From NCBI GenBank assembly GCA_021648485.1, contig JAKISS010000019.1:1-47991 (forward strand): DNA of 47,991 bases, in the 5' to 3' direction. Positions 13,445-35,135 of the stretch are shown here, piece after piece (the first letter of the stretch is position 1; every line of letters begins with the position of its first letter). This DNA is from Gammaproteobacteria bacterium (GTDB taxonomy: Bacteria > Pseudomonadota > Gammaproteobacteria > SZUA-152). The notes beneath the pieces were generated by a model. It was given only the letters and a program-made list of their open reading frames with translations, had not been told where the DNA came from and did no database searches. Both the position numbers and the translations under genes were made by a program.

Positions 13445-13751
13445 GCAGGAGTGTGGGGATTTTTGCGGATATGAAAACTTTTGGTCTTGGTCTAAAGTTT
13501 AATTTCGATTGGTGGAACATTATTTTTAAAGAAGGTGAGCTTTCTGAAGATGATTAAATTTTCGATTTTTTTATACCAAGAAAAAATCAGACACCAACAT
13601 CTACGATAAGCTCAGAGCATTAACTGTCTATGGAACTAAGGAATGAGTTTTATTCTTTTAAAGAATGGACCAGTATCAATGACATTCTATTTGTTCTGCC
13701 ACCCTCATAAGTATGAAATCGACTACTTCACTTCACAAGGACAATGATCTC

Positions 13752-19088: not shown

Positions 19089-20987
19089 ATGGCCACTAAA
19101 ACAAACTGGATTTACGCAGTGTTTCCTTTCTTGCGCTGGATGTCCATGCTTAACCGGGAGGTTGTTAAAGCAGATATTATTGCAGGTGTCACTGCTGGAG
19201 TGTTGATATTGCCACAAGCGATTGCGCTTGCGACATTAGCAGGTTTGCCACCTGAATACGGACTGTATACTTCGATATTTCCTGTTATGTTTGCTGCTTT
19301 GTTTGGCTCATCCTGGCACGCCATGTCAGGCCCTAATACAGCATTAAGTATACTTATTGCGTTCACCATCGCCCCGTATGCCAGCATTGCCTCGCCCGAA
19401 TGGATTCAATATGCTATTACCCTGGCATTCATGGCAGGCGTTATCCAGATTGCGCTAGGCTTGTTACGCCTTGGCATTATATTTAACTATTTCTCTCAAA
19501 CTGTGACAATTGCACTGATTACCGGTGTTGGTATTATCATTATTGTCTCCCAGCTGGGTAATTTTATGGGTGTCTTGATGAATATCGCTGAGCCTATAGA
19601 AGATGCTATCCCCCAAATTATTTACGGTATATCAAGAGCTAATGGATTTGCTGTTTCTGTTGGTGTTGTTACCGTACTTTCGGGATTGTTGATCAAACGC
19701 TACTACCCAAAGCTGCCCTTTCTTATTATCGCGGTTATCGTAGGGATGTTATTTGCGGCTGGGTTGGAATTAATACTGGGTGAGTCCAATGTAGGCCTGG
19801 ATAAACTGGGCACCATGTCATTATCCGCATTGCCGCTTTCTTCCCCGGATTTTAGCCCGGAAAATTTTGCTGAAGCCTCTCAGGGCTTATTGCCCGCAGC
19901 CTTTGTCATCGCATTTTTAGGTTTGATACAGGCATCTCTTATTGCCCGTGCCATGGCAATTAAATCAGGTCAGTGTATCGATATTAATCAGGAGGTTTTG
20001 GGACAGGGCATCTCAAACCTGGCAGGCAGCTTTGTTTCCTGTTTTCCCAGTTGCAGTTCTTTTAACCGTAGTGCATCCAATTTTGAATCAGGTGGGAGAA
20101 CGCCTTTATCTGCGCTGATATCTGTTATTACTCTGGGAATTCTCGTTGTATTTGCCGCTCCTCTTATCGCTCATATGCCAATTTCTGTGATGGCTGCCAT
20201 ATTATTGTTAGTAGGTGCAGGGCTCATCAAAAAAAATGACATTAAAAAAACCCTTTTGGAAAAAAGAGAAAATCAGTTTATTTTTGCCCTGATTTTATTT
20301 TCTACAATTTATGGCGGTGTTGATTATGCGGTATTTTTTGGTATAGCGTTGTCGATTATTGCTTACCTGAAAAATGTATCCAAACCTGAAATAGAATTAT
20401 TGACAGGGAAAGATGCACAGCAATACTTTCCCCGGTCTGCTTCAGGACCGATTGTACAGAGTGGCGGACCCGAAGGCGGTAAGAAACTCTATCAATCTTT
20501 AGAAAATCAGCGCCTTTCACTCTCTTCCGGAAGACAGAAATATAACGAGTTGAGCGTGGAAATACCCAAACGGTTTGACCACGTTACAGTATTGCAGATT
20601 TCGGGTAGTTTGTTTTTTGGTTCTGTGATGCGTTTAGAAAGCGTTTTGACAGAATTAAGAAAACAAGATGGCGGAAAAGGGGATTTAATTATCTCAGGTG
20701 AAAACCTTCAGTCGATCGATGGCACTGGTGCAGAAGTTCTGGTGCGAGAAGCCCAAAGCCGCGTAAAGGCAGGTGCCCGAATGTTATTGTGGTTGCGGAA
20801 CCACAACCACGATGCAGTGCTGCATTCCAGTGGGCTGAAAGAAATCATTGGCGAAGAGAATATTTATTACTTGAAAGAAAGTAATAACGGTGACCATCAG
20901 GACCATCAGGACCATCAGGACCATCAGGACCATCAGGACCATCAGGACCATCAGGACCATCAGGATCATCAGGATCATGTGGCATAA
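19089..20987 (+). CDS. SulP-family anion transporter with STAS domain and (Asp-His-Gln)9 tail
   Basis: The 632-residue inner-membrane protein belongs to SLC26/SulP transporters, which carry sulfate, bicarbonate or other anions. Signs are the SulP signature region (GVTAGVLILPQAIALATLAGLPPEYGLYTS, shown in part: PQAIALATLAGLPPEYGLYT), about ten to twelve membrane segments to residue ~440, and a STAS regulatory domain (about 505-610; VLQISGSLFFGSVMRLE, SIDGTGAEVL). The C-terminus is unusual: nine Asp-His-Gln triplets followed by DHVA. Six bases separate it from tsdA-like, so it is in the same operon, and thiosulfate or sulfate movement is a reasonable guess. Specificity cannot be read from the sequence. 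Confidence 0.9.
   Translation: MATKTNWIYAVFPFLRWMSMLNREVVKADIIAGVTAGVLILPQAIALATLAGLPPEYGLYTSIFPVMFAALFGSSWHAMSGPNTALSILIAFTIAPYASIASPEWIQYAITLAFMAGVIQIALGLLRLGIIFNYFSQTVTIALITGVGIIIIVSQLGNFMGVLMNIAEPIEDAIPQIIYGISRANGFAVSVGVVTVLSGLLIKRYYPKLPFLIIAVIVGMLFAAGLELILGESNVGLDKLGTMSLSALPLSSPDFSPENFAEASQGLLPAAFVIAFLGLIQASLIARAMAIKSGQCIDINQEVLGQGISNLAGSFVSCFPSCSSFNRSASNFESGGRTPLSALISVITLGILVVFAAPLIAHMPISVMAAILLLVGAGLIKKNDIKKTLLEKRENQFIFALILFSTIYGGVDYAVFFGIALSIIAYLKNVSKPEIELLTGKDAQQYFPRSASGPIVQSGGPEGGKKLYQSLENQRLSLSSGRQKYNELSVEIPKRFDHVTVLQISGSLFFGSVMRLESVLTELRKQDGGKGDLIISGENLQSIDGTGAEVLVREAQSRVKAGARMLLWLRNHNHDAVLHSSGLKEIIGEENIYYLKESNNGDHQDHQDHQDHQDHQDHQDHQDHQDHQDHVA
20892..20972 (+). repeat. Nine tandem 9-bp units (GACCATCAG) inside the SulP gene
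   Basis: Eight exact copies of GACCATCAG (20892-20963) and one GATCATCAG (20964-20972), then a partial GATCAT. The unit length is a multiple of three, so gain or loss of units changes the length of the His/Asp-rich tail without a frameshift. Confidence 0.95.
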
Positions 20988-21001
20988 ACGGGAGAGTAAG
21001 G

Positions 21002-21427
21002 ATGAAAATTCGAAAATGGCTGCCAGGCATCATGTGTTTGATGCTGCTTGTTGGTACGGTATGGTCCAGTGAAGCACCACGTTATAGTCTGCTGATACAG
21101 GTTAGTGAGGACAGTCTGGATAAACTGAATCTTGCTTTAAATAATGCCAAAGATGCACAAAAATCTTTCGGCCCTGAAAATATAGAAGTGGAAATAGTGG
21201 TATTTGGTGCTGGTGTTCATACATTGAAATATTATGCGCCGGCACCGATATCTGACAAGGTAAAAGCAGCTACATACAGTGGAGTACGTATTGTGCTTTG
21301 TGAAATTGCTATGCGCGCGGCTAATTTGCGTCCTTCTGATATGCTGCAATCTGTACGTTATGTACCTTCGGGTGTTGCCGAAATTGTTGAGAAACATACC
21401 CTGGGGTGGACTTACATCCGCCCTTGA
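21002..21427 (+). CDS. Periplasmic DsrE-family protein
   Basis: The 141-residue product has a signal peptide (residues 1-23, IMCLMLLVGTVWSS) followed by a DsrE/F-like domain: strand SLLIQVSEDS, helix KLNLALNNAKDAQ, strand IEVEIVVFGAGVHTL, the conserved cysteine in VLCEIAMRA (C100) and the end motif VRYVPSGVAEIVEKHTLGWTYIRP (19 residues of it being VPSGVAEIVEKHTLGWTYI). DsrE-fold proteins bind or transfer sulfane sulfur through that cysteine. Being exported, this one would act in the periplasm, near the TsdA-like and SoxB-like proteins. It starts 14 bases after the SulP stop. Family is secure; biochemical role is inferred. Confidence 0.85.
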   Translation: MKIRKWLPGIMCLMLLVGTVWSSEAPRYSLLIQVSEDSLDKLNLALNNAKDAQKSFGPENIEVEIVVFGAGVHTLKYYAPAPISDKVKAATYSGVRIVLCEIAMRAANLRPSDMLQSVRYVPSGVAEIVEKHTLGWTYIRP

Positions 21428-21443
21428 TGCTCAGAAATTGAAA

Positions 21444-23198
21444 ATGAAACTAAAACTAATAATCAGATGGGCATGTCTGGTATTCTTATACAGCATATTT
21501 TTTTCGTCGGTACAGGCTGCTAACAATACCATCACACTGATACACATGGGTGACATCCATGGGCACCTTATACCTCGCCCGAATATGCGGGACAATGAAT
21601 CAACCACAGAATACAAGGTGGGTGGGCTTTCCTATTTATACAGCGCAATAAAAGAAATTCGTGAAAAAAATACCCATACATTATTGATTAACACGGGGGA
21701 TACCATACAAGGATCTGCCGAAGCCCTGTTTTCCCGTGGCCAGATTATTGTCGATATACTCAATAAATTTGATATCGATGCTTTTGCGCCAGGAAACTGG
21801 GATTTCTTATATGGTACAAGGCGTTTTATCGAATTGTTTTCAGGGGATAATCCAAAAGCCAACTGGAATGCTCTGGCCGCTAACCTCTACTATGTCACTC
21901 TCTATGAATATCCCCTCACACCTTATCCAGAAAAAGCAGGGCGGCGGGTTTTACCGTCGCATTTGATTAAACAAGTGGGTGATATAAAAATCGGTATTGT
22001 CGGCCTTACTGCTGAGCGTGGCCCACAATCTGTGAGCCCGTTTTTAATGGATGGGTTCTATTTAAGCCCCGGTGAGGAGGAGCTTGAAGAAGCCATATCT
22101 CTGCTGAAAAAAGAAGACAAGGTTGATCTGATCATACTGATTTCAGAGCGTGGCCTGGCTGCCAATCTTGATATTGCAGAGAGAATCCCAGGTGTTGATA
22201 TCATATTATCTTCAGACATGCATGAAGAAACCCGGGAGGTTTTGCAAACAAAAAATGGTACATTAATTATAGAAGAAGGCCAGGATGGCACTATGCTTGG
22301 AGAAATCACTCTGACGATTACGGATAAAAAAATCAGCAGCTGGCATTGGAAACCCCATTTTATCAATACCCGTGACTACAAACCTGATCCGGAAATACAG
22401 GCAATGATAGAAAAATACCGACGTCCTTTTATAAAAGGGCCGGGTTTTGTATCCCATGTTAATCCTATTAATGCGGCAGTGTTAAGAACGCCGATCGATA
22501 CTATTATTGGTTATACAAAAGTTGCCTTGCACCGTTCCAATTTTTCCGATGCTGCATCGATGCCCGCAGTGGTAGAAGGCTCATCCCATAATTTTCTTTC
22601 TGATGCATTCAGGCTGGCTTGTAATGCTGATGTGGGTGTTATTCGCGGATTTCGTTATGGCACACACATTGCTCCGGGGCCAATCCGTCTTGAAGATATC
22701 TATCACTATATTCCCATTGGGCCACAAATTGCCTGCGGTAAAGTGTCCGGTGACAATTTATACCTCGCTATTGAAAAATCTGCTGATGATGTTTTTAGTG
22801 GTTGGGTTGCCAATTGGGGGGGGGGCTGGTTACAGGGGTCTTCAGGTATTACGTACACCCTTGACCCGGGTAATGAATATCGGGTGAGGGTATCAAATAT
22901 GCGTATTAATGGTGAATTACTGGATACTGCACGCATGTATACTGTTGCGGGCTATTGGTATCTCGATAATTCACATAAAATCAATGGCATGCTCGCTCAG
23001 GAAATCAAAGTGTTAAAAGACAGGTATGGCGGTATCGTGGATGCAACGGAAATTGTTGCCTATTATTTACAATCCTTGCCGAGTAAAACAGTTGATCCGG
23101 AAAAAAACCGTATTCACTTGTTAAACCCTTTGCCCAAGTCCATCAGTAACAACAAAGAAATACAACCATTGCGAGGAATACCTCGTCCGGATTATTGA
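21444..23198 (+). CDS. SoxB-like / 5'-nucleotidase-family periplasmic metallohydrolase
   Basis: The 584-residue product has a signal peptide (residues 1-25, ending SSVQA) and the two-domain 5'-nucleotidase plan: a metallophosphoesterase domain with HMGDIHGH (D37, H39), NTGDTIQGS (D86), APGNWDFLYG (N118) and SSDMHE (H260), then a C-terminal domain (GSSHNFLSDAFRL, GDNLYLAIEKSADDVF). GNWDF..YG is closer to the SoxB motif GHWEFTYG than to GNHEFD of nucleotidases, and the surrounding sulfur genes favour SoxB, which hydrolyses sulfate from the SoxY carrier. No soxXA or soxYZ is present, so the substrate may differ. ATG 21444 directly precedes the signal peptide. A run of ten G at 22816-22825 lies inside the gene. 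Confidence 0.8.
   Translation: MKLKLIIRWACLVFLYSIFFSSVQAANNTITLIHMGDIHGHLIPRPNMRDNESTTEYKVGGLSYLYSAIKEIREKNTHTLLINTGDTIQGSAEALFSRGQIIVDILNKFDIDAFAPGNWDFLYGTRRFIELFSGDNPKANWNALAANLYYVTLYEYPLTPYPEKAGRRVLPSHLIKQVGDIKIGIVGLTAERGPQSVSPFLMDGFYLSPGEEELEEAISLLKKEDKVDLIILISERGLAANLDIAERIPGVDIILSSDMHEETREVLQTKNGTLIIEEGQDGTMLGEITLTITDKKISSWHWKPHFINTRDYKPDPEIQAMIEKYRRPFIKGPGFVSHVNPINAAVLRTPIDTIIGYTKVALHRSNFSDAASMPAVVEGSSHNFLSDAFRLACNADVGVIRGFRYGTHIAPGPIRLEDIYHYIPIGPQIACGKVSGDNLYLAIEKSADDVFSGWVANWGGGWLQGSSGITYTLDPGNEYRVRVSNMRINGELLDTARMYTVAGYWYLDNSHKINGMLAQEIKVLKDRYGGIVDATEIVAYYLQSLPSKTVDPEKNRIHLLNPLPKSISNNKEIQPLRGIPRPDY
22816..22825 (+). repeat. G10 homopolymer in the SoxB-like gene
   Basis: Ten consecutive G encode part of NWGGGW. 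Loss or gain of one base would shift the frame in the C-terminal domain, so it is a slippage hotspot or a site of sequencing error. The frame as given is intact through 23198. Confidence 0.9.
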
Positions 23199-23309
23199 GT
23201 GTCTTTCTTTGTCCTTAGATATCCTGTATTGACTTACTCAATCTCAGCTTAACTCAAGTCACTCAAATGCCAAATAAACAAAATTATGGTTAACACCCCC
23301 TGGGGGATA

Positions 23310-26300
23310 TCAATTATTACGAATGTGATTTAGCGTTAGCAGAGCTGCCTGCTCTACTGTCGCGCCACTCATGATATCCAATATTGGCATCATGAGGCCA
23401 TATTTCTCACCCATACTTCCAGAGAACTCAACGGCCATAAGGGAGTTGACGCCGATATCCACAATTCGTGTATGCATGTCAATTTTTTCGGCGGGCATTT
23501 TTAATAATGCTGAAAGCTCATTTCTCACAAGTTCTTTGAAAAAATCTTGCTGCGCTTCTTCGTCAAGGTCTTTAATACAGGCCTTGGTTTGAAGGAGTGC
23601 ATCAGAGTTTCCCCCTTTAGCATCATTCATAACCTCTTCATATATTGGTGGCATCCAATCGGTGGGTAACATTGCATTCCATTTTGTCCAATCCAGGTCA
23701 AAATAAGCAATTTGTGCGGGCGATGTTTGATAAGCAAACTGTAAAAATTCACCGATCTGAACGGGCTTGATACCCGAGAATCCTGCATTGGCAAAAAAAT
23801 CTTCAACCTCTTTTCGTTCAGAAACGATGCCACTATCAGAAACCACGCCAAGATTCACCGTTGTTGCGGGCAACCCCAGGCCTTGGCGGTAATGGGAGAA
23901 AGCATCCAGAAAACAGTTCGCTGCAACGTAGTTTGCCTGCCCGGGGTTTCCTATCAAAGAAGATACCGATGAAAGGCTAAAGAAAAAGTCCAATGGCATG
24001 TCCAGGGTCAGTTGATGAAGGTTCCAGGCTCCACGCACTTTGGGTGACAGCACTTTATCCATACGTTCTGGCGACAGCGATTGCAAAAAATCGTCATCCA
24101 GGACCATTGCACCATGTATCACACCTTTAAGCACAGGAATGTCACCACTAACAGTATTAAAAGCTTCTTTTAGTGTTTCTTTATCAGCAATGTCCACGGC
24201 TATTATTTTTACCCGGCAACCTTTGGCCTCAATCTCCTTTACTGTCTTTATGGCATAATCACTTGTCAAACCCCGTAAGCTTAATAAAACCAAATGTCTG
24301 GCACCTTGTGTTGAAGCCCATTTTGCAAGCTCCAGCCCCAGTCCTCGGGTTCCTCCGGTAATAAGATAGCTGGCATCTGCGACAAATAAGGATTTTTCCC
24401 TATAAGGGATATTGGCTTCAACCATAGCATCCGCAGGAAATGTCAGTAAGCCCGGTGCAATATTATGCTCGCTATTTAAAGTATTGAAGATATCTGATAA
24501 CTGGTTGTGCGTGTAACGGGTTAATGAGTGTTCATAATCAAACTGAATAGATGATTGTGCCATGAATGTTTTTGCCCGTAATAATATCTCTGATGCCTGT
24601 GGTTTATTCAGGCTTTTAATGCTTGATGACAGGTAAGTAATATTTCGCTCTGATAATACTTTCCAGAGCGTTTCGTCATAAGTGATATTCTCACCCAATG
24701 CCAGAAATTGGCCATAATATTTAATTTTATGGTACGTCGAAAAGCCAGTGTTGCTGTTACCGCAATCAATCAATATGTCATAAACTGTCTGTTTCTGAGC
24801 ATCAGTATCCAGAACATCAAAATTCAACCCTTGATGTTGAAGCAAAGCACTGACTAATTTACCCGTTTCGCTATGTTGATCTGAGAGTAGAATTGACCGG
24901 GTTGTGTCTAACGGAAGTGTATCAAAAGCGGCACATACCGATAATGTTAATGATAGCGGTGCCCAACATTGTTGCGATTTGCAGGGTACCAACCATTTTT
25001 TGTCCACTGCCAAAAATGTACTCAGTTTCTGGTCAAAACCAAGAAAACTGACCTTATCACCGGGCTGAAACTCAGCCTCTGCGTTTCTGCCAGGCACAAT
25101 AATTTCACCCCAGCCTTCCCATTGCCCCTTGCCGGTACTGCGATCAACGGTTTGTTTCGTCATATCACCGATATAGTAAGAGATAACACGTACAATACAT
25201 TTATCAGGATGAATGACAGGCGCTGGTATTTTATTGAACAAGGCTGATTCGGGGTTATAGCTTAACGGGTTTTCTAACGCTTCTTTTGCCAACCGGCCCT
25301 GAGGTTGTAGAGATTTTTCTTTCACCCGCTTTAAACGATGGATGTAGCGTTTTCCGTCGCGATAAGCAATTTCGGACTCCTCATCTTCAAACAGGAATTC
25401 TTTCACCAGTAAATCAATTTCATGGGCACTGTGGTTGTTTGCCCGATCAAAATCAACAGATTTACAGTATTTTGAAACGATTTCACTCATCAGTACACGT
25501 TGAATACCCCAAAGCGTGGATAAACCCAGTCCTTCACATTTATCAGAGTGGACAACATGATTCGCATGACTCACGGCCAGCCCTATCTTGAATTGTCTGT
25601 GGAGAATATCTTCCCGCGACATGGAAAATAGCGACAACAAGAGGATATCACCATTTTCATAATGATCCACTGGCGTGTTTTCTCCCAAATGCCACAAATA
25701 AATCATGGCGGAGAATTCAAAGCCAGACAAGTCTTGCCATAATTGTTTCCAGTGTTGCTGATTTCTGGGGTTAACAGAATAATTATTTTCGCCAAGAACA
25801 TTATAATTATCATCCCAGAAAACCTGTATACAGCCAGGGTCCTGTTCTCTCCAGGCCTGAGAAATACTTTTCTGGTTATGCCTTAAAAAAACAATAGCAT
25901 TTAGAGCATCTTTTTTTATTTTTATTTCGTTGTTGTCTTCATGCCAGGCCATTTTATACAGGTTTCCGCTATATCGCTCATCAGTAGACTGCAAGGCAGG
26001 TACTTCGCGACAAATAATACCTTTGATCTGAACTAAAGGTGTTCCATGTAGATCAAAAATATCAAAGTCAGCTTTCAGTTCTCTTGCTGTTCTTGATACT
26101 ACTTTCAGGTGACACCAGAATTCCTCTGGCGGGCTGTCTTTAATGATGAGTTGTTCAAGTGCAGTGGGTAAATAGGGGCGTTCTGAATCAATTTGGAGAA
26201 TGGCCAGGGTTTGAAAGCAAGGGTCAAGTTGGCAGGGGTGTAAATAATAATCCTCGGCTAATAGCCCTGTAGGTGTTTTGATTTTCACCAATGCCTCATC

Positions 26301-29300
26301 ATTTCCAACGTGAATTTCCTGTACACCCTGGAAAGAGGGGCCATATTGCAATCCCACATCTGCCAGCATGGTATAGAAATCATCCACATTATAAGACTTG
26401 CCAAGTTTGTTTTTTAAAGCAGTAATGTCATGTCTGGTTTTTCTGAAAGCCCCCTTATATGTCTGTATTTTTGAACCTGCATGATAAGTCCATGTGTGAT
26501 TTGCCTGATGATTCTGGCTATAAACGGAAAAACGCTGACTCTCATGACTATAGTGTATTTGTATTCTTTGACTGTCTTTTTCACGATAAACAAGAGGCGT
26601 GTTGAATTGAACATCTTCCAGAATACAGGATTTGTCGCCAAATATTTTTTTGCACAACATTAAACCGGCTTCAATATATGCAGCACCGGGGTTTATAACC
26701 AAGCCTTCTATTTTGTGATCGGTTAACCAGGGAAAGTAATTCAGATTAAAGTCCACTTCCCAGGCAGGGTGGGGTAGGCGTAAATCCAAAGCAAAAACAG
26801 GGTGTTCAGCATTTCCTAAGCGATCTTCCCGGGTATAGGGGTCCTCACCCCAGTAAATTTCTTTGTCCCAACAGTACATCGGCAAGTTGGTCAGCTTTCC
26901 ATTATTACCGCCGAATTTTGACCAGTCAATGTCGTAGCCTGTGCAATATAATTGTCCCAGGCTGAGTAACATATTTTCTTGTTCAGGTTTTTTGCGAACC
27001 AGGGAGCTGACCGTGTGCCCACGTTTTTGTTCTGCCTGTAAACACTGTTTGATAGCGGAACCCAATACGGGATGAGGACCAATCTCCATAAATATATTGG
27101 CACCCTCTTTAATCATCGCAATGGTGCTTTGTGCAAAAGAAACAGGGTGGCGAACATTTTTCCACCAGTATTCCGTATTAAACCAACAGCCTTCTTCAAG
27201 CTTTCCAGTAACGCTGGAGTATAGTGGCTTCGTTGTGTTGGCGGTTTGAATATCTTTTAAACTTTCGAGTAGCTCGATTTTCAGGCCGTCCATAACAAAA
27301 CTATGGAAACCGGTTTTTACATGGAGTTTACGGTGGAAAATTCCCTCATCTTCCAACGTTTCTGAAAGCAGGGTAATCGCTTCCAGATTGCCGGAAAGAG
27401 TAACAGCTCCCGGGCTGTTGATGGCTCCTATACACAGGCGTTCGCCATAGGGTTCGATATAATCAGCAATATCACTTGCGCTTAAGCCCACAGCCAGCAT
27501 ACCGCCTTCACCGTCAGTGTGTTGTTGTAATCGGCCCCGGTGATAAATAACTGTTAGTGCATCTTTCAGGCTGAGAGCACCCGCTGCGTGGGCTGCGGCA
27601 ACTTCTCCCAGACTATGACCTACAATCAACTCGGGTTCCACCCCCAGTGACTGCCAATAGGCGGTTAATGCATACTGCAAGGCAAAGTTGGCTGGCTGGG
27701 TAATATCGGTCTGTGTGATATTGGAGGTTTTTTCATCCCGGGAAAGCGCTTCAATCAATGACCAGCCGGAAATCGGTTTAAATGCGGTATCGCAGGCTTC
27801 CAGTGCATGTCTGAATACAGGCTGTGTTTCCATCAGCTCACGACCCATGGCCCACCATTGTGGGCCCATACCGGTATAGACGAATGCGATTTTTACATTT
27901 TCTTCACTGTCCCCAGAGATGATATGGGGTGAAAATTCATCCCTGGCATAGTCGTGCAATTTATTTTGCAAGTCTTCCAGATTTTCAGCATATATGGCCA
28001 GTCGTTTATTGTAATGGCTGCGTCTATACCGTACAGAATAATAGACATCGTCGAAGTCATTTGCGGATGCAATTCGGTCTGCCATCATAAGGGCGCTCTT
28101 TTTTAACGCACTTTCACTACGGGCTGACAAGGGGAATAAAATAGGCCAATTGATAGTGGATTCAGGTTTTTTTACTGTTGGTGTTACCGCAGGTTGATAT
28201 TTTTCAACAATGACATGTGCATTAGTGCCGCCAAAGCCAAAGGAGTTAATGCTGGCACGCGGGACATCACATTCTGGCCAGTCCTGGTTTTTCAATGGTA
28301 CCTGTACAGCAAGGTTGTTAAAATCAACCTCAGTATTGCCTTCTTTAAAATTGATATTTTGTGGAATAATATCGCTTTGCAAGGATAATGTGGTTTTAAT
28401 CAGGCCAGCGATGCCCGCTGCGGCTTCCAGGTGGCCAATGTGGGATTTAACTGATCCAACAAAGACCTTTTCTTTTTTTTCTGCACCCGTATTGCGTTGA
28501 CTCATTACGTCATGCAAGACACTCAATTCAGTGGAATCACCTGCTTTGGTGCCGGTACCATGGGCTTCAATATATTGCACATCAGAATAACCAACACCTG
28601 CTTCCTTATATACTTTTTCAATGAGTGACTTTTGTGAAGAAGGGTTTGGTAAAGTGATGCCTGCTGTTCGGCCATCCTGATTAACCCCTGTGTTTTTGAT
28701 AACAGCATATATTTTATCACCATCGGCTTCAGCCTCACTTAATCGTTTCAAGAACGCAATACCTCCTCCTTCACCGCGACCATACCCATCTCCGCGGCGG
28801 TCAAAACTCATGGAGCGCCCGTGAGTAGACAAGAACCGGCCTTTTGACAGGGTGATGGTTGTCGTCGGATTTATCATCAGACTTACCCCTCCCGCAATGA
28901 CGATACGGCATTCGTTATTCCATAAACTGTTGCAGGCATAGTGAGTGGCAACCAATGAAGAAGAGCATGCGGTATCCATGCTGACACTGGGCCCCTTCAG
29001 GTTAAGGGAATAGGAAATTCGGTTGGATAATAAAGTGCAGGAAACGGCAGTTGATGATACAGCTGAAATTTCTCTGCGATTGAGGTAATGGGTATGCAGA
29101 CTAAGATGATCCATGAAGAAACCGCCCATGAAAACACCCGTATCACTGTCAGACAGGTCTTCCAGGCGAATGCCGGCATCATCGGCGGCCTCAATGACCA
29201 GCTCCAGTGCCAGACGCTGTTGAGGGTCCAGAATTTGTGCTTCTCGGGGTGACAAGCCAAAAAATAATGCATCAAAAGCAGCGATATCGGTGTCGAGAAA

Positions 29301-29510
29301 AGCCCCTTCACGCATATACATTTTTCCCGGTTTATCGGGGTCAGGGTCATAAAACTTCTTAGTACTCCAGCGATCACCGGGTACTGGAATAACCGTGTCT
29401 TTACCGGCAATAAGATTGTCCCAGAATTCGGTGAGCGTATTGCCTCCGCCCGGTAAACGGCATGACATGCCGACAATGGCGATTGGCTCTTTATTTTTAT
29501 TCCTTTTCAT
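23310..29510 (-). CDS. Type I polyketide synthase, KS-AT-DH-(ER degenerate)-KR-ACP
   Basis: A 2066-residue single-module reducing synthase. Ketosynthase (about 8-435): DTACSSS (C182), EAHGTGT (H317), KSHIGH (H360). Acyltransferase (about 540-840): GHSLG (S633) and TGFHS, nearer the malonyl than the methylmalonyl type. Dehydratase (about 900-1170): DHKIEGLVINP (H932) and QLDPCFQ (D1096). Residues ~1430-1640 resemble an enoylreductase remnant (GQFLALGENITYDE) without the usual NADPH-binding glycine motif. Ketoreductase: TGGTRGLG (1718-1725), S1848, Y1861, N1865. ACP: DIGVNSL (S2023). No thioesterase is present, so release is unexplained. A strong AAGGAG eight bases before ATG 29510 lies in the end of the upstream oxygenase gene, two bases away. 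It is convergent with the sulfur operon. The product is unknown. Confidence 0.95.
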   Translation of the reverse strand: MKRNKNKEPIAIVGMSCRLPGGGNTLTEFWDNLIAGKDTVIPVPGDRWSTKKFYDPDPDKPGKMYMREGAFLDTDIAAFDALFFGLSPREAQILDPQQRLALELVIEAADDAGIRLEDLSDSDTGVFMGGFFMDHLSLHTHYLNRREISAVSSTAVSCTLLSNRISYSLNLKGPSVSMDTACSSSLVATHYACNSLWNNECRIVIAGGVSLMINPTTTITLSKGRFLSTHGRSMSFDRRGDGYGRGEGGGIAFLKRLSEAEADGDKIYAVIKNTGVNQDGRTAGITLPNPSSQKSLIEKVYKEAGVGYSDVQYIEAHGTGTKAGDSTELSVLHDVMSQRNTGAEKKEKVFVGSVKSHIGHLEAAAGIAGLIKTTLSLQSDIIPQNINFKEGNTEVDFNNLAVQVPLKNQDWPECDVPRASINSFGFGGTNAHVIVEKYQPAVTPTVKKPESTINWPILFPLSARSESALKKSALMMADRIASANDFDDVYYSVRYRRSHYNKRLAIYAENLEDLQNKLHDYARDEFSPHIISGDSEENVKIAFVYTGMGPQWWAMGRELMETQPVFRHALEACDTAFKPISGWSLIEALSRDEKTSNITQTDITQPANFALQYALTAYWQSLGVEPELIVGHSLGEVAAAHAAGALSLKDALTVIYHRGRLQQHTDGEGGMLAVGLSASDIADYIEPYGERLCIGAINSPGAVTLSGNLEAITLLSETLEDEGIFHRKLHVKTGFHSFVMDGLKIELLESLKDIQTANTTKPLYSSVTGKLEEGCWFNTEYWWKNVRHPVSFAQSTIAMIKEGANIFMEIGPHPVLGSAIKQCLQAEQKRGHTVSSLVRKKPEQENMLLSLGQLYCTGYDIDWSKFGGNNGKLTNLPMYCWDKEIYWGEDPYTREDRLGNAEHPVFALDLRLPHPAWEVDFNLNYFPWLTDHKIEGLVINPGAAYIEAGLMLCKKIFGDKSCILEDVQFNTPLVYREKDSQRIQIHYSHESQRFSVYSQNHQANHTWTYHAGSKIQTYKGAFRKTRHDITALKNKLGKSYNVDDFYTMLADVGLQYGPSFQGVQEIHVGNDEALVKIKTPTGLLAEDYYLHPCQLDPCFQTLAILQIDSERPYLPTALEQLIIKDSPPEEFWCHLKVVSRTARELKADFDIFDLHGTPLVQIKGIICREVPALQSTDERYSGNLYKMAWHEDNNEIKIKKDALNAIVFLRHNQKSISQAWREQDPGCIQVFWDDNYNVLGENNYSVNPRNQQHWKQLWQDLSGFEFSAMIYLWHLGENTPVDHYENGDILLLSLFSMSREDILHRQFKIGLAVSHANHVVHSDKCEGLGLSTLWGIQRVLMSEIVSKYCKSVDFDRANNHSAHEIDLLVKEFLFEDEESEIAYRDGKRYIHRLKRVKEKSLQPQGRLAKEALENPLSYNPESALFNKIPAPVIHPDKCIVRVISYYIGDMTKQTVDRSTGKGQWEGWGEIIVPGRNAEAEFQPGDKVSFLGFDQKLSTFLAVDKKWLVPCKSQQCWAPLSLTLSVCAAFDTLPLDTTRSILLSDQHSETGKLVSALLQHQGLNFDVLDTDAQKQTVYDILIDCGNSNTGFSTYHKIKYYGQFLALGENITYDETLWKVLSERNITYLSSSIKSLNKPQASEILLRAKTFMAQSSIQFDYEHSLTRYTHNQLSDIFNTLNSEHNIAPGLLTFPADAMVEANIPYREKSLFVADASYLITGGTRGLGLELAKWASTQGARHLVLLSLRGLTSDYAIKTVKEIEAKGCRVKIIAVDIADKETLKEAFNTVSGDIPVLKGVIHGAMVLDDDFLQSLSPERMDKVLSPKVRGAWNLHQLTLDMPLDFFFSLSSVSSLIGNPGQANYVAANCFLDAFSHYRQGLGLPATTVNLGVVSDSGIVSERKEVEDFFANAGFSGIKPVQIGEFLQFAYQTSPAQIAYFDLDWTKWNAMLPTDWMPPIYEEVMNDAKGGNSDALLQTKACIKDLDEEAQQDFFKELVRNELSALLKMPAEKIDMHTRIVDIGVNSLMAVEFSGSMGEKYGLMMPILDIMSGATVEQAALLTLNHIRNN

Positions 29511-29512
29511 TT

Positions 29513-30955
29513 TTATAACTCCTTGTTAATCGTCCTTCTCCAACAGCCATGAAAGGTCAGCGGTATTTCATTTTCAATATGGACCAATGTCAGTGGTCCC
29601 TGGTTTATTTCTCCACTTTTGAAAATGGCCAGATAATTACATTTATTTATTCCGTCATGAATTAATGACATCAGTAAACCGACAGACTCATTAGGGCCGA
29701 AATTCACTCCTTGCATGCCGGGAGCAAGTATTGGCTCAGAGCAATAAACCCCTTCACCAAAACAATGCTCCTGTTGTATTCCTGTTTCCATATCAACTTG
29801 AACGACGGTATTCCAAAAAGGATTTTGAGTATTTCCTTTGACCATGTAACTGAATTTGTTTTTCAAGCCGACACGATCAGGATGTACGGTTGGAAATTCA
29901 TAATTACCTTCAAACAAACGCATTTCATGTAAATTACCGTTGTTTATATCAATTTCGTACCGCCATATTTCACCGGGGGCATAAGGGCCATGAGCTGTGC
30001 CTGTCAGTGCATTTTTATACATGGGCGAAGTTCCCATGAGATGATCAGGTGATGAGTGCCCTACAAAATCCATGACTATTTTGTCGTGCTCCTCCCAGGC
30101 ATTGATTGAATGTAACCACCAGCGTGCCTGTGCGTCATAGTATTTAGGCGCTTCTTTTCCTGATTTGTGGTAGATAACAATCAAGTTTCCTTCTTCGGGA
30201 AGCCACTTTATCGAGTTGATAAAGCTTCGGGTTCCCGCCAATACTGATTGAATGCGTATGAATGCCGGATGCAGGCACATGACGACATAATTTTCAGTCG
30301 TAAAAAAATCATGAACATACACAGCCCGGGGAAGAATCTGTGAAAAGCTGTTTAATAATCTTCCTTCATTGTCAAGAATGGTGAAATAGACTTCCGCCTG
30401 CTTTCCATGCTTTAAACCAAAGTGCAGCCATTGGTTTTGGAATGTATGAATTTTGGAATGTGCTGAAAATGCTGCCTGTGGATCTAACAGTCCCAGTGTT
30501 GATCGGCCAATTGTTTCCAAACTGTTTGGCTCTAGCTCGTAAGGGCTGAATGATTCATCAAACACAAACAGTTTTTTGTGGTGAAAGACCGGTGCGATAT
30601 AAGCCTGACTTTCATATTTAGGAGGCTCAATTTCATCAAACTCGTCCTGACCGGCTCGAAATGTCCAGGTGTCATAAATGAATTCTTTTTTCCTGGATTC
30701 TTCGATGAATTTTTTTGTTCGGACAAAACGGTTTGTATAACAAATGTTATTACCGTTAAAGGCAAAGCTGTGAACCATGCCGTCACCATCAACAAAATAG
30801 GATTTTTTCTGACCGTTTCGCTCAAATAAAGCAGGGCCGCTACGATATAATACGCCGTGAAAATCCGACGGTAATTTATTGCCGGTATTAATGTGTTTCT
30901 TTTTTTCGAAGGGTTTGGCATTTATCCAACTGTCATAGTGCGGTTTTGTGCCCAC
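29513..30955 (-). CDS. Carotenoid-cleavage-oxygenase-family (RPE65-like) iron dioxygenase
   Basis: The 480-residue protein belongs to the seven-bladed propeller family that cleaves double bonds in carotenoids, retinoids or stilbenes with a four-histidine iron centre. The four ligands are visible: FSAHSKIH (H166), VYVHDF (H215), WLHSINAWEE (H282) and LTFHGCW (H469). The N-terminal GVLYRSGPALFERNG and FVDGDGMVHSFAF are family signatures. There is no signal peptide. It starts at GTG 30955 with AAGGA ten bases upstream. Its TAA is two bases from the PKS start, so the two are tightly coupled and probably act in one pathway, perhaps cleaving a polyene made by, or primed into, the PKS. No carotenoid genes are in the window. 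Confidence 0.9.
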   Translation of the reverse strand: MGTKPHYDSWINAKPFEKKKHINTGNKLPSDFHGVLYRSGPALFERNGQKKSYFVDGDGMVHSFAFNGNNICYTNRFVRTKKFIEESRKKEFIYDTWTFRAGQDEFDEIEPPKYESQAYIAPVFHHKKLFVFDESFSPYELEPNSLETIGRSTLGLLDPQAAFSAHSKIHTFQNQWLHFGLKHGKQAEVYFTILDNEGRLLNSFSQILPRAVYVHDFFTTENYVVMCLHPAFIRIQSVLAGTRSFINSIKWLPEEGNLIVIYHKSGKEAPKYYDAQARWWLHSINAWEEHDKIVMDFVGHSSPDHLMGTSPMYKNALTGTAHGPYAPGEIWRYEIDINNGNLHEMRLFEGNYEFPTVHPDRVGLKNKFSYMVKGNTQNPFWNTVVQVDMETGIQQEHCFGEGVYCSEPILAPGMQGVNFGPNESVGLLMSLIHDGINKCNYLAIFKSGEINQGPLTLVHIENEIPLTFHGCWRRTINKEL

Positions 30956-31518
30956 AATGATAACGTCCTTGTTATTGTCTTACATTGTCACTACAGGGAG
31001 TGACAAGCGGGTTATTATATTTATTGATTGTTTCTACTTTATTACATTTAAAGTAGATAAGGAGATAATTGTTTACAATAAATACGAATAACCAAAGAGC
31101 GAAAAGGATGATAGCTGGCAGCTAACAAATACATCAAAGAAGGGATATGATAGAGTAAAACCACCCATTTCTTTGAGGTTGTGACTGTCTTGATAAGGTA
31201 TGCGTTTAGGGATGGAAATTAAATAACTTATTTAATTTCCATCCCTTAGTGGGTTGCAGTGGATATGGGTTTTCTTTAAGACTTGTTTTTTGTGTTAGGG
31301 GGGCATGCCATTATTGGTTCGTTCATTGTGTTGTATGGTTGAGACATTTTTGTTGCAAGCATAACTTGAAACCGTTGGTTTTGTTGGTGAGATGTTTACA
31401 CCGTTGATGTTTTATTCTTGTTGACGGTGATTTTTTCTGGCAAGACACAACAGTGGAAAAAATGAAATACCACAGACGTTGAAATTGTTATATGTCTGGG
31501 CTTCATGGCATGCCCTGT
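30956..31518. other. Gene-free gap upstream of the oxygenase-PKS operon, with a 39-bp palindrome
   Basis: No ORF with a ribosome site is seen. The left end carries the operon promoter. At 31208-31246 there is a perfect palindrome (AGGGATGGAAATTAAATAA, one central base, then its reverse complement), with 19-bp arms and no U-tract on either strand. It could terminate or process transcripts from the gene at 31519-32523, or be a recombination or binding site. Confidence 0.6.
30985..31006 (-). promoter_or_regulatory. Palindromic operator candidate in the oxygenase-PKS promoter
   Basis: Perfect inverted repeat TTGTCACT-N6-AGTGACAA. On the minus strand a TATAAT hexamer (31019-31014) lies eight bases upstream, so the palindrome covers the predicted transcript start and ends 29 bases before GTG 30955. 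This is the usual place for a TetR/MarR-type repressor site. No good -35 was found, which fits a regulated promoter. Confidence 0.45.
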
Positions 31519-32523
31519 TCATACGCCACCGAAGACAACTTCAAGTTTAAATGTTAACGAATGTCGTGAGTGAAAATCCTCGGCTTGTGGATACACTACT
31601 TTGGGGTTGATCTCGAAGAACAGCCAGTCGCGATGAATTTGTTGGCGCAGGCGCACTGACACGACGTAGCCAGTGGTTTGCATTTTTGGTTCGCTGACGG
31701 CGGTCAGCCCGGTACGGTAAATGATGGCACGGTGTTTGTTGATGGTATGGATCAGAAAAAAATCCTGGTTCATATCGAACTGGCGGGTTTTATCCAGCCA
31801 GGTGGCTTTGCTGGTGGCGCGGAACAACCAGGTTTTGGCAAACCGGCGTTCGATATCCAGCCGTGTGGTTGCACCGGGGCCGGTTGAGTCACGCCAGAAC
31901 AGGGTTTCGGTGGCACGCAGATTCCAGTGGCCGAAGTGAAATAGTCCTCGCAGACGAAAACGGACAAAGCTGTCCAGTCCCCCGGAACGGAAACGCACGC
32001 CGACATCGGTATTGGCGCGCAACCAGTCGGTGGAGAGCTGGATGTACCGCAGACCGAGGGATTGCTCCTGTGCTTCCACAGCTTCTGCGATAGTATTGTC
32101 GGCATTTGCATTTTCTTCGGGGTCACTCTCGAATAAAAGCTCTAGTCGTTTTTGTGTATTGGGCAGGGTGAGTTTACCTTGCAGGTTGGCTTCGTAACGC
32201 GGTTGATAGCCTTCTTCGTTAATTTGCAACAGGTTCAGTTTGAGGCTGCTGTTTTGTGATTCATCGTAGATGCGCTCATCACCAAAAAAATTGTCCAGCC
32301 AATTGGCAAATTCGGTGACCTGGTGTGAGACGGCATTGCGTGTGCTGTCCAGCGGTTCCAGCAGGGGGATGCGTGGCTCTGTTGTCCCTTCTGCTGAGTT
32401 TGTGTTTGTTTCTGCGGCGGCATGCAGGGGGGGTGCGCAAAGCAGTATTGAAAAGAACAGGGACGTACAACCGCAGATAAGGTTGAATGGAGGCGCAGCA
32501 TTTGGGGAAGACGGTTGTACCAC
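31519..32523 (-). CDS. Predicted outer-membrane beta-barrel protein, unknown function
   Basis: I do not recognise a named family. The 334-residue product has a signal peptide (LFFSILLCAPPLHA-AAE, cut near residue 37) and an acidic, Asn/Ser-rich linker. From about residue 90 it is made of alternating amphipathic strands (YEANLQGKLTLP, LGLRYIQLST, DSFVRFRLRGLFHFGHWNLRATETLFW, given in part) with aromatic girdles, typical of a barrel porin-like protein. The start is GTG 32523; no ATG is available before the signal peptide. It is separated from tusE upstream by a terminator, so it is probably transcribed alone. A similar 'hypothetical' family occurs in other gammaproteobacteria, as far as I can judge. 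Confidence 0.7.
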   Translation of the reverse strand: MVQPSSPNAAPPFNLICGCTSLFFSILLCAPPLHAAAETNTNSAEGTTEPRIPLLEPLDSTRNAVSHQVTEFANWLDNFFGDERIYDESQNSSLKLNLLQINEEGYQPRYEANLQGKLTLPNTQKRLELLFESDPEENANADNTIAEAVEAQEQSLGLRYIQLSTDWLRANTDVGVRFRSGGLDSFVRFRLRGLFHFGHWNLRATETLFWRDSTGPGATTRLDIERRFAKTWLFRATSKATWLDKTRQFDMNQDFFLIHTINKHRAIIYRTGLTAVSEPKMQTTGYVVSVRLRQQIHRDWLFFEINPKVVYPQAEDFHSRHSLTFKLEVVFGGV

Positions 32524-32630
32524 GTTTTGTGAACTCTCTGATCGTCCGTGCGGGTCTTTAGCCTACGGTGGAATGGCCGCTAATTCAAAGGTTTGTGTTG
32601 TGCGGTATGAGTGCAGAAATGCGTACAGGC

Positions 32631-32664
32631 AAAAAAAAGTCCTGCCAGGTCGGGTTGGCAGGAC
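32631..32664 (-). terminator. Rho-independent terminator downstream of tusE
   Basis: Read on the minus strand: stem GTCCTGCCA / TGGCAGGAC (9 bp, perfect) with an 8-base loop, followed by eight T (plus-strand A run 32631-32638). It lies 52 bases after the tusE stop and would end the purT-dnaJ-tusE transcript. Confidence 0.9.
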
Positions 32665-32715
32665 ATGTCCGCTAAGAACGGTCAGTACATCGTATTAATG
32701 ATTATTAATACCCCC

Positions 32716-33048
32716 CTAGCTACAACCTTTGGGACGTGGCAGTCCGGCAATTTTGTTGGCTGATTTTACCAGACCGTAAGGGAACAGGGAGTAGAGGTAC
32801 TTGCTATCACTACGGTCTTTGCCGTATTTTTTTTTCATGACTTTGGAAAAGGTACGCGGCTCACAGACTTTGCCGTTTTCTTCGAAAAAATGCCGGGCTT
32901 CGTTAATGATGTCCCAATGTTCGGGGGTGAGTTCCACTTTTTCATTTTTGGCGATTTCGTAGGCGAGGGCTTCGCTCCATTCGCTCAGGTTTTCCAACCA
33001 TCCGGCTTCACTCAGTGCAATGATCTTGCCGTTTACTTCTGCCTGCAT
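32716..33048 (-). CDS. tusE: TusE/DsrC-family sulfur carrier protein
   Basis: The 110-residue protein is of the DsrC/TusE/DsvC family: the start MQAEVNGKIIALSEAGWLEN, LTPEHWDIINEARHFFEENG and the flexible end GLPRPKGCS with the conserved penultimate cysteine. The second cysteine of true DsrC, ten residues earlier, is absent (position occupied by KSANKIAG), so it is the TusE type that relays sulfur to TusBCD/MnmA for tRNA 2-thiouridine, not the dissimilatory DsrC. ATG 33048 has GGAG upstream; the ORF's earlier start at 33090 has not. No tusBCD is seen here. The J-domain gene lies 88 bases upstream. Confidence 0.9.
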   Translation of the reverse strand: MQAEVNGKIIALSEAGWLENLSEWSEALAYEIAKNEKVELTPEHWDIINEARHFFEENGKVCEPRTFSKVMKKKYGKDRSDSKYLYSLFPYGLVKSANKIAGLPRPKGCS

Positions 33049-33136
33049 AATTGACTCCAACGGTTCTACGTTGCCGGGTGGCAACAACATTAAGGGACTC
33101 TGTAGGCTATTTTAGATAACCCAGCGTTTTCGTCAA

Positions 33137-33898
33137 CTACCCTTTTGGGGGAGCATGGACACCCCTAAGCAGACAATCTTTGGCCTGATTGATTTTAGTG
33201 GCCAGATAAGTGGAGCCACCGCGATCCGGATGGAGTTTGTGGATTAGCCTCCGGTGGGCCTGAGTGATTTCTTCTTTGTCGGCTTTAGCCTCCACGCCTA
33301 AAATGTCGCGGGCTTCTGCGACAGACATACCATCTTCCGATGGTGTTCTACGGGGTCCGTCGTTGTCAGTTTGTGTACGCCAGCCGCTATGGTGACGATC
33401 CAGGTAAGCTGCGAGCAGGGCGGTGGAGCGTGGGTCGATGCTGCATTCCTGTAGCAGACGCAGCAGTTCATCCAGCGTCAGTTTGCTGAGAAACTGTCCC
33501 TCAAAGGCACCGTCCAGCACTTCACCGTCCAGATTGCCGGTATTGGTGTCCAGACTGACTCGCAGGAAACGGGTTTCCAGTGTGGAGAACGGACTGCCCT
33601 GCTGCCGACCGAAAGCGGCACCCGCCTGACCGGCTGTGCCGCCAAACAGACCCCGCACCATGGGCAGGAAACGCAATAACATAAAACCTCGCCTTAGGAG
33701 GGGCAGGGCTGCTGCGCCGATGACAAAGATCCAGTTAAGGCGACCAGTAAGGGCAAAAAAGGCAAGTACGAGCAGCGCAAGCATCAGTCCGGCACGTTTG
33801 GCGGTGGTGATCACCTGTTTGGGCGGAGTGCGCACAAACCAGCGCACCAGCAGCCAGGCAGCCAGTACAACAGTGATGAGAATGATGAGACGAGACAT
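33137..33898 (-). CDS. Membrane-anchored J-domain protein
   Basis: The 253-residue product has two to three N-terminal membrane helices (IILITVVLAAWLLVRWF; GLMLALLVLAFFALTG; IFVIGAAALPLL), a middle domain of unknown fold (TRFLRVSLDTNTGNLDGEV) and a C-terminal J-domain (about 195-250) with the HPD tripeptide in HKLHPDRGGS. J-domains stimulate DnaK ATPase; the membrane anchor suggests local recruitment of DnaK, as in DjlA-like proteins. ATG 33898 gives the hydrophobic start; the ORF extends to 34003 inside purT. It follows purT by 22 bases. Confidence 0.88.
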   Translation of the reverse strand: MSRLIILITVVLAAWLLVRWFVRTPPKQVITTAKRAGLMLALLVLAFFALTGRLNWIFVIGAAALPLLRRGFMLLRFLPMVRGLFGGTAGQAGAAFGRQQGSPFSTLETRFLRVSLDTNTGNLDGEVLDGAFEGQFLSKLTLDELLRLLQECSIDPRSTALLAAYLDRHHSGWRTQTDNDGPRRTPSEDGMSVAEARDILGVEAKADKEEITQAHRRLIHKLHPDRGGSTYLATKINQAKDCLLRGVHAPPKG

Positions 33899-33920
33899 AG
33901 TAAGACGCAGCGGGTTTTGG

Positions 33921-35135
33921 TTATTTCGGTACAGGCTTGATGAGCGATGCGGCTTGTTTGGCACGCTGGCGGGCATCGTTGGCGCTGTTATTGGCACCAC
34001 CACCGCCGTAAGCCAGAGCTACGCCCATGCGTCGGCGTACAAAGGCTTCAGGTTTGCCGAACAGACGTAATTCGGTTTGCTGAACGCGTAATGCCTCGGC
34101 GATGCCTTCAAAAGCAATGCCAGCCAGTTCATGCCCGCCGTAAATCACCGCGCTGGCTCCGGGTTCGCGTAGGCGGGTGTCCACTGCCAGACCGAGAATG
34201 GCGCGGGCATGCAGTTCAAATTCATTTTGCGCCTGGGTCACCATAGTGACCATACCCGTGTCGTGTGGTCGCGGGCTGACTTCACTGAACCAGACTTCGT
34301 CGCCTTTGATGAATAATTCCACGCCAAACAGCCCGCGACCACCCAGGTTGTCAGTGACTTCTTTGGCGATTTGTCGGGAGCGTGCCAGGGCGATTTCGCT
34401 CATGATCTGAGGCTGCCAGCTTTCCACATAGTCACCTTGCTGTTGCAGGTGACCAATGGGGTCGCAAAAATAAGTTTGTATTTCACCCTGCGCGTTCAGT
34501 GCGCGCACGGTGAGCTGGGTGATTTCAAAATCAAAGTGGAGCATTTCTTCCACGATCACCCGGGTCTGTGATACACGACCGCTGCTGATGGCGTGATCCC
34601 AGGCCGCAACCACATCATCCGGGGTGTGCAGGGTGGACTGGCCTTTCCCCGAAGAAGACATCACCGGCTTGACGATACAGGGGTAACCCACGCCATTATC
34701 AATGGCTGCCTGCAATTCATCGTGCGAATCGGCAAAGGCATAACGTGAAGTGGGTATGTTCAGTGCCTCAGCGGCCAGTCGGCGAATGCCTTCGCGATTC
34801 ATGGTTAATTGTGTCGCTCGTGCAGTGGGTATCACCTGTGTCAGACCATCGGCCTCGATTTCTGCCAGCATATCGGTGGCAATGGCTTCGATTTCCGGCA
34901 CGATGAAATGGGGTTTTTCCTGTTCAATCAGGGCGCGCAGTGCCGCGCCATCGGTCATATCAATGGTATGCGCGCGGTGTGCCACCTGTTGTCCCGGCGC
35001 ATTGTCGTAGCGATCCACGGCGATGACTTCCACACCCAGGCGTTGCAGGGCGATGATGACTTCTTTGCCCAGTTCACCGCTGCCCAGCAGCATTACGCGC
35101 AGCGCGGTATCGGAAAGGGGAGTGCCTATTTTCAT
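33921..35135 (-). CDS. purT: Formate-dependent phosphoribosylglycinamide formyltransferase
   Basis: PurT formylates GAR in purine synthesis using formate and ATP, independent of folate. The 404-residue protein is an ATP-grasp enzyme: start [32 protein letters not shown], the phosphate-binding loop [23 protein letters not shown], and the metal-site end [26 protein letters not shown] (motif [11 protein letters not shown]). Length and motif order match E. coli PurT. It is the first gene of a likely purT-J-domain-tusE transcript ending at the terminator at 32631. Confidence 0.97.

Follow-up and report, generated by a model that had tools for sequence, protein, structure and literature searches.

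A carotenoid-cleavage-type dioxygenase gene joined to a reducing polyketide synthase gene in a gammaproteobacterium: a candidate two-gene route to polyene aldehydes

The stretch of DNA analysed here (the window, 47,991 nucleotides) is contig JAKISS010000019.1 of assembly GCA_021648485.1, from a Gammaproteobacteria bacterium whose genome is called G000 below. Its minus strand carries, in tandem, a gene for a carotenoid-cleavage-type dioxygenase (CCD) of the RPE65 family and a gene for a single-module type I polyketide synthase (PKS). From their sequences we consider it probable, at roughly 0.6, that the PKS works iteratively to build a polyene, which the CCD would cleave to an aldehyde. The genes and their ribosome sites are arranged as follows:

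29513-30955, minus strand: CCD gene, 480 amino acids, GTG start (open reading frame list)
23310-29510, minus strand: PKS gene, 2066 amino acids, ATG start, in the order ketosynthase (KS), acyltransferase (AT), dehydratase (DH), degenerate enoylreductase (ER), ketoreductase (KR) and acyl carrier protein (ACP), with no thioesterase (open reading frame, Pfam, PDB and motifs)
30966-30970, minus strand: ribosome site of the CCD gene, AAGGA
29519-29524, minus strand: ribosome site of the PKS gene, AAGGAG, in the last codons of the CCD gene, 8 nucleotides before the PKS ATG
23219-31430, no strand: the whole segment that is present or absent as one, 8,212 base pairs, replaced by 50 base pairs in the sister genome G009

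Both open reading frames are real and above chance, because frames of 480 and 2066 amino acids stay open, the family matches run full-length and both are kept in two other species. An earlier note on this DNA had placed the genes at these coordinates, two bases apart and with the PKS ribosome site inside the dioxygenase gene; all of this holds, the two bases between the CCD stop and the PKS ATG being 29511-29512. In genomes G006 and G002 the CCD and PKS genes overlap by 4 bases, with AAGGAG at the same position as in the window. The CCD gene has its own ribosome site and is separated from its upstream neighbour by a spacer of 563 bases, and downstream of the PKS gene a SoxB-like gene lies on the opposite strand; the transcription unit would therefore most simply consist of the two genes. 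A scan for promoters and terminators gave no excess over shuffled sequences (four promoter-like sites, with a shuffled mean of 2.2 and standard deviation of 1.4, and no terminators), and the pair is not flagged as atypical in composition. As the earlier note had stated, no further biosynthetic gene adjoins the pair on either flank in the window. To the left is a run of cytochrome c, SulP-like, DsrE and SoxB-like genes, and to the right are a conserved family-less protein, DsrC/TusE, and DnaJ-like and PurT-like genes (the SulP-like, DnaJ-like and PurT-like assignments were read from translations).

Within the genus, the CCD is found in three of 12 genomes, namely G000, G006 (93% identity) and G002 (85%), and the PKS adjoins it in each, with 91% and 84% identity to the window PKS in G006 and G002, respectively. 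Across the genus the two are present together or absent together. The locus of G009 is collinear with window positions 20963-23218 and 31431-34926 while the site of the pair is empty, and the two genes thus behave like a single unit of 8.2 kb. The claim that the two genes form one unit is thus borne out by the 2-base gap or 4-base overlaps, the shared ribosome-site position, the joint presence or absence and the clean empty site. The pair is absent from the loci fetched around the neighbour gene (31519-32523) in G004, G007, G010 and G011, and no CCD match was found genome-wide in G001, G003, G005 and G008, which are 73-85% complete. This neighbour gene encodes a 334-residue protein without Pfam or NCBIfam match; it is present in all 12 genomes (cut off by contig ends in G003 and G005, 90% identical in G009) and the pair adjoins it in three of them. 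An old presence of the pair with repeated loss would fit better than a recent transfer, because the PKS, the CCD and the neighbour gene are about equally similar between the window and G002 (84%, 85% and 84% identity). Both genes are intact and, judging from ratios of non-synonymous to synonymous substitution (dN/dS) of 0.087-0.107 for the PKS and 0.079-0.122 for the CCD, under purifying selection, these ratios being rough where dS between the window and G002 is near 1. Compared with G006, dS along the PKS is very uneven, at 0.57 in the KS and 0.21 in the KR, with 0.17 in the neighbouring gene; this pattern suggests that recombination may have taken place.

The PKS is made up of the following parts:

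28200-29489, minus strand: KS, residues 8-437, with C182, H317 and H357 (Pfam, motifs)
26931-27890, minus strand: AT, residues 541-860, with S633 and H736 (Pfam, motifs)
25989-26804, minus strand: DH, residues 903-1174, with H932 and D1096 (Pfam, motifs)
24396-25328, minus strand: degenerate region in the place of the ER, residues 1395-1705 (no Pfam ER, PDB match or glycine-rich motif)
23838-24374, minus strand: KR, residues 1713-1891, with GGTRGLG, LDD at 1804-1806, Y1861 and N1865 (Pfam, motifs)
23346-23531, minus strand: ACP, residues 1994-2055, with S2023 (Pfam, motifs)

The Pfam models of the KS, AT, DH, KR and ACP all score above their cut-offs. The catalytic residues, said in the earlier note to be kept, are present in the PKS of the window and also in those of G006 and G002; we take these motifs to have their usual functional meaning. 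The AT motifs GHSLG and GFHS suggest the use of malonyl units, under a rule that, like the one for the LDD motif of the KR, we presume to apply. The region in the place of the ER is of ER size and is the most divergent part of the protein (67.0% identity between the window and G002, against 83.8% overall). At E≤1e-3, neither an ER family nor a thioesterase family of Pfam is matched by the PKS; no PDB sequence matches residues 1390-1712 at E≤10, and a glycine-rich NADPH motif is missing from this region in the three orthologues. The view that DH and KR are kept and the ER is dead agrees with these results, and all three orthologues would have the make-up of a polyene-forming PKS, with active KR and DH and no working ER. 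Only 7 residues precede the KS and 11 trail the ACP, so docking segments are absent, which would fit a stand-alone iterative enzyme; the protein has the composition of a single-module reducing PKS, KS-AT-DH-(ER)-KR-ACP on one chain.

The mycobacterial enzyme MAS is iterative. The window PKS shares with MAS and Pks2 the domain order, the length and the lack of a thioesterase, and differs in its degenerate ER, its CCD partner and a score far below the Pks2 cut-off. The nearest NCBIfam profiles are 'PKS_plus_SDR' (1178 bits, cut-off 1740) and Pks2 (882.5 bits, cut-off 2400), and the match to the MAS structure (PDB entry 9d2y) scores 712.6 bits. All three genomes with the pair carry an Sfp-type transferase gene, whose product would presumably load the ACP. 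On contig C40 of G000 (locus L200, 1447-3004), an Sfp-type phosphopantetheinyl transferase gene adjoins one for an Rv2949c-like chorismate pyruvate-lyase (4-hydroxybenzoate), and the same adjacency is seen in G006.

The CCD matches the Pfam RPE65 family with 311.9 bits over residues 27-473, so that the seven-bladed propeller of this family spans the whole protein. Its predicted structure (pLDDT 85.2) matches CCD structures over the whole length and is nearest to apocarotenoid oxygenase. The four iron-binding histidines that the earlier note had listed as kept (166, 215, 282 and 469) are identical, together with Glu 407, in 41 of the 41 other rows of our alignment, and the second-shell residues Glu 134 and Glu 353 are glutamate in 35 and 37 of them; the full ligand set of the family, four histidines plus second-shell glutamates, is therefore present. 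Position 119 is a tyrosine instead of asparagine, a departure from all 41 relatives, and position 120 is isoleucine in all three pair members and threonine in 40 of the 41. Through I120 the CCD has the Thr/Val/Ile 'plug' at the sixth iron site, a residue class compatible with five-coordinate iron (PMC12051055). For the stilbene cleavers, PMC8191317 gives Lys-134 as catalytic, with Phe-59 and Tyr-101. Judged by its distance from the conserved Asn-Thr motif, Asp133 takes the position of this lysine in the CCD, and the catalytic lysine of the lignostilbene dioxygenase subfamily is thus missing. Compared with the Synechocystis apocarotenoid-15,15'-oxygenase (PDB entry 2biw, about 26% identity), N119, T120 and a tryptophan are replaced by tyrosine, isoleucine and aspartate, and the CCD has a PKS neighbour and no carotenoid pathway that could be found. 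The CCD forms an isolated branch: none of the sequences found outside the genus is more than 29% identical to it.

In the proposed pathway, the PKS would work alone and repeatedly, extending with malonyl units. It would reduce and dehydrate each new unit and skip enoylreduction, leaving a conjugated polyene on the ACP, because DH and KR are predicted to be active and an ER is absent. The iron-dependent CCD, made from the same message, would then use O2 to cleave one double bond of the chain, so that both sides of the cut end in a carbonyl; the product would be a polyene aldehyde of reduced length or an omega-oxo acid. The chain could be cut while bound to the ACP, or once it has been released or transferred. 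The earlier note had proposed that cleavage solves the missing release step; for a cut on the ACP this would be true of the distal half, freed as an aldehyde, but a short oxo-acyl thioester stub would stay on the ACP, needing separate release.

Oxidative cutting of a PKS polyene has precedents. In fumagillin biosynthesis of Aspergillus fumigatus (PMC7020470), a reducing Fma-PKS makes a dodecapentaenoyl polyene, an acyltransferase moves this chain to the alcohol fumagillol, and Fma-ABM thereafter cleaves the polyene of prefumagillin. The pathway proposed here resembles it in having a reducing-PKS polyene later cleaved by a separate oxygenase, but Fma-ABM is a small monooxygenase of the ABM family instead of a CCD, and fumagillin comes from a large fungal cluster. 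For limocrocin of Streptomyces, oxidative cleavage by Lim18 of a C18 PKS polyene on a carrier protein has been proposed (PMC11727611). Either course, transfer to an alcohol before the cut or a cut on the carrier, could apply to our pair; limocrocin differs by type II-like separate ketosynthases (Lim11 and Lim12), an Fma-ABM-related oxygenase and a thioesterase in the cluster. A CCD/RPE65 protein paired with a PKS was not found in searches of the open-access literature. The earlier statement that no such system has been described accordingly stands for a CCD in that role and falls for polyene cleavage itself, known for fumagillin and proposed for limocrocin; what appears to be new is an enzyme of the CCD family in this role, together with the two-gene format.

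Of the alternatives, the one that holds up best, although unlikely, is that the product of the pair is an aryl-alkene or aryl-polyene, started for instance from 4-hydroxybenzoate, and that the CCD cuts next to the ring like the stilbene cleavers. The adjacency of the lyase and Sfp-type genes in G000 and G006 and the occurrence of the lyase in all three pair-bearing genomes are in its favour, as are the best NCBIfam matches of the CCD, which are lignostilbene dioxygenases, although at 119.9 bits against a cut-off of 800. The lyase, present in 6 of the 12 genomes, is however also encoded by three that lack the pair, for which reason the starter was set aside as a pair-specific feature; the CCD has Asp133 where the stilbene cleavers have Lys-134, and its fold is nearer to apocarotenoid oxygenase.

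Rather improbable is that the CCD has the substrates typical of its family, carotenoids or apocarotenoids, and adjoins the PKS without a shared pathway. Membership of the RPE65 family and the fold nearest to apocarotenoid oxygenase speak for this; the metagenome-assembled genomes are also incomplete (G000 86%; G002 99% complete), and imported carotenoids are invisible in genomes. Phytoene/squalene synthase (SQS_PSY) matches occur in all 12 genomes of the genus, but where they were typed, in G000 and G002, both copies of each are HpnC or HpnD over curated cut-offs, not CrtB (three G006 matches were left out). CrtI is over its cut-off in none of the 12, whereas the control exceeded it in 4 of 14; where the pair is present, in three genomes, the match covers just 47-54 of the 504 positions, and full-length weak relatives are found only in the pair-less G009 (146 bits) and G007 (111 and 97 bits). 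No carotenoid pathway was thus found in the pair-bearing genomes. The joint gain and loss of the pair, the translational overlap and an active-site position 119 unlike that of 41 out of 41 relatives also speak against separate roles. The earlier note had named carotenoids made elsewhere as a possible refutation; this is unlikely, as no CrtI over the cut-off was found in the genus and no CrtB in G000 or G002, with imported carotenoids outside what genomes reveal.

RPE65, of the same fold, is an isomerohydrolase acting on retinyl esters, and it is just as improbable that the CCD-family protein isomerises, hydroxylates or splits a polyene ester or thioester, being in effect the release enzyme. 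The lack of a release domain in the PKS agrees with this, as do the loss of N119 and the isoleucine in place of Thr 120, in a class compatible with five-coordinate iron according to PMC12051055. The most doubtful alternative is that the PKS makes a non-polyene, through an ER in trans compensating for the loss or through few extensions, and that the substrate of the CCD is a single isolated double bond, as the genes next to the pair in G000, G006 and G002 include none for an ER.

Several observations weigh against polyene cleavage by the pair. No CCD-PKS pair was found outside the genus in our partial searches. No CCD closer than 29% was present in 369 genomes of the class, 398 of the phylum or the best 80 GTDB contig matches, the last from a non-exhaustive scan with one degenerate pattern (at least 590 stretches, best 80 of at least 582 relatives). 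Plasmid searches with the CCD gave 82 records, all below 60% identity, and the phage search gave no match. A PKS adjoins the CCD in none of 113 other loci (0 of 26 for L005-L030, 0 of 80 for L070-L149, 0 of 7 for L191-L197), seen with flanks of 1.5 kb or up to 9 kb, several contigs ending sooner; these are fewer independent cases, as L008 and L079, and L097 and L100, look like the same DNA. Conversely, a CCD adjoins none of 25 PKS loci, which cover mostly the 5' side of the PKS and extend for about 1.5 kb beyond the matched part. Conservation, whose failure the earlier note had set as a refutation, is thus found in three of 12 genomes within the genus and was not found outside it in these searches. 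No aldehyde dehydrogenase, thioesterase or acyltransferase gene adjoins the pair; a CCD fragment match in the pair-less locus L186 (E 0.64) is at chance level; and the dN/dS values are rough, as said. The reaction of the CCD cannot be read from its relatives, because it has diverged from them (N119 to Y, T120 to I, D133).

If the product of the PKS is a polyene to be cut, two unrelated families of cleaving oxygenases would be expected beside sister PKSs. The sister genome G007 has no CCD; 203 bp downstream of its closest PKS gene (contig C155, 2106 amino acids), the same strand encodes a 184-residue protein matching Pfam 'Monooxygenase af470-like' (139 bits, cut-off 25), the family of Fma-ABM. 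The G007 and window PKSs fall in one nine-row clade with support 0.94, in a tree of the 36 of 50 candidate rows that were long enough, all of them unnamed PKSs. The parallel is imperfect, which also counts against the proposal, because the ER region of the G007 PKS still passes the Pfam zinc-binding dehydrogenase cut-off by 0.6 bits (32.4 against 31.8).

This G007 locus (L066, 6594-7148 and 7352-13672, minus strand) is a second two-gene unit of PKS and oxygenase, with a different oxygenase fold. Other PKS loci of the genus are built differently. A cluster conserved in G000 (L065, contig C25, 7661-18242), G002 (L067, C9) and G003 (L068, C146) has a single-module PKS of 2056 amino acids, a class I/II aminotransferase, an MMPL transporter and a LolA-like protein, with a further protein of about 400 residues in G002 and G003; from its gene content it looks like a system in which an enzyme that condenses the chain with an amino acid would take it off the PKS, with export to the outer membrane. 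In G007, locus L069 (C91, 159-14012) contains, on one strand, a 2424-residue PKS, an adenylation-ACP-thioesterase protein, two weak CrtI relatives and a flavodoxin.

Elsewhere in the window, a perfect 18-bp inverted repeat with a 3-base loop lies at 31208-31246, between the neighbour gene and the CCD gene (folding z -8.4); it resembles a terminator but is in none of the other loci compared, and was rejected as part of the unit, being missing at that place in G006. The 1063-residue protein of 13713-16904 has FG-GAP and seven tandem PKD domain matches, a repeat number unlike that of its aligned relatives, and the C-terminus of the SulP-like transporter (19089-20987) is a tract of nine or so HQD units.

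It is possible, though we put it forward tentatively, that the CCD is a chain-processing and partial off-loading step, which would cut the ACP-bound polyene, set the chain length through the site of the cut and free the aldehyde with O2, and that a PKS plus a polyene cleaver is a two-gene pathway type with exchangeable cleavers, the CCD and the Fma-ABM family in the same genus. If polyene cleavage by the pair is correct, CCD chemistry would extend from terpenoid and stilbenoid substrates to polyketides, and the pair would provide a minimal route, of two genes, to polyene aldehydes or to products of the dialdehyde type. It would also be a simple system for how polyene PKSs without a release domain unload, and a CCD gene beside a PKS gene would have to be scored as part of that pathway, not as carotenoid metabolism.

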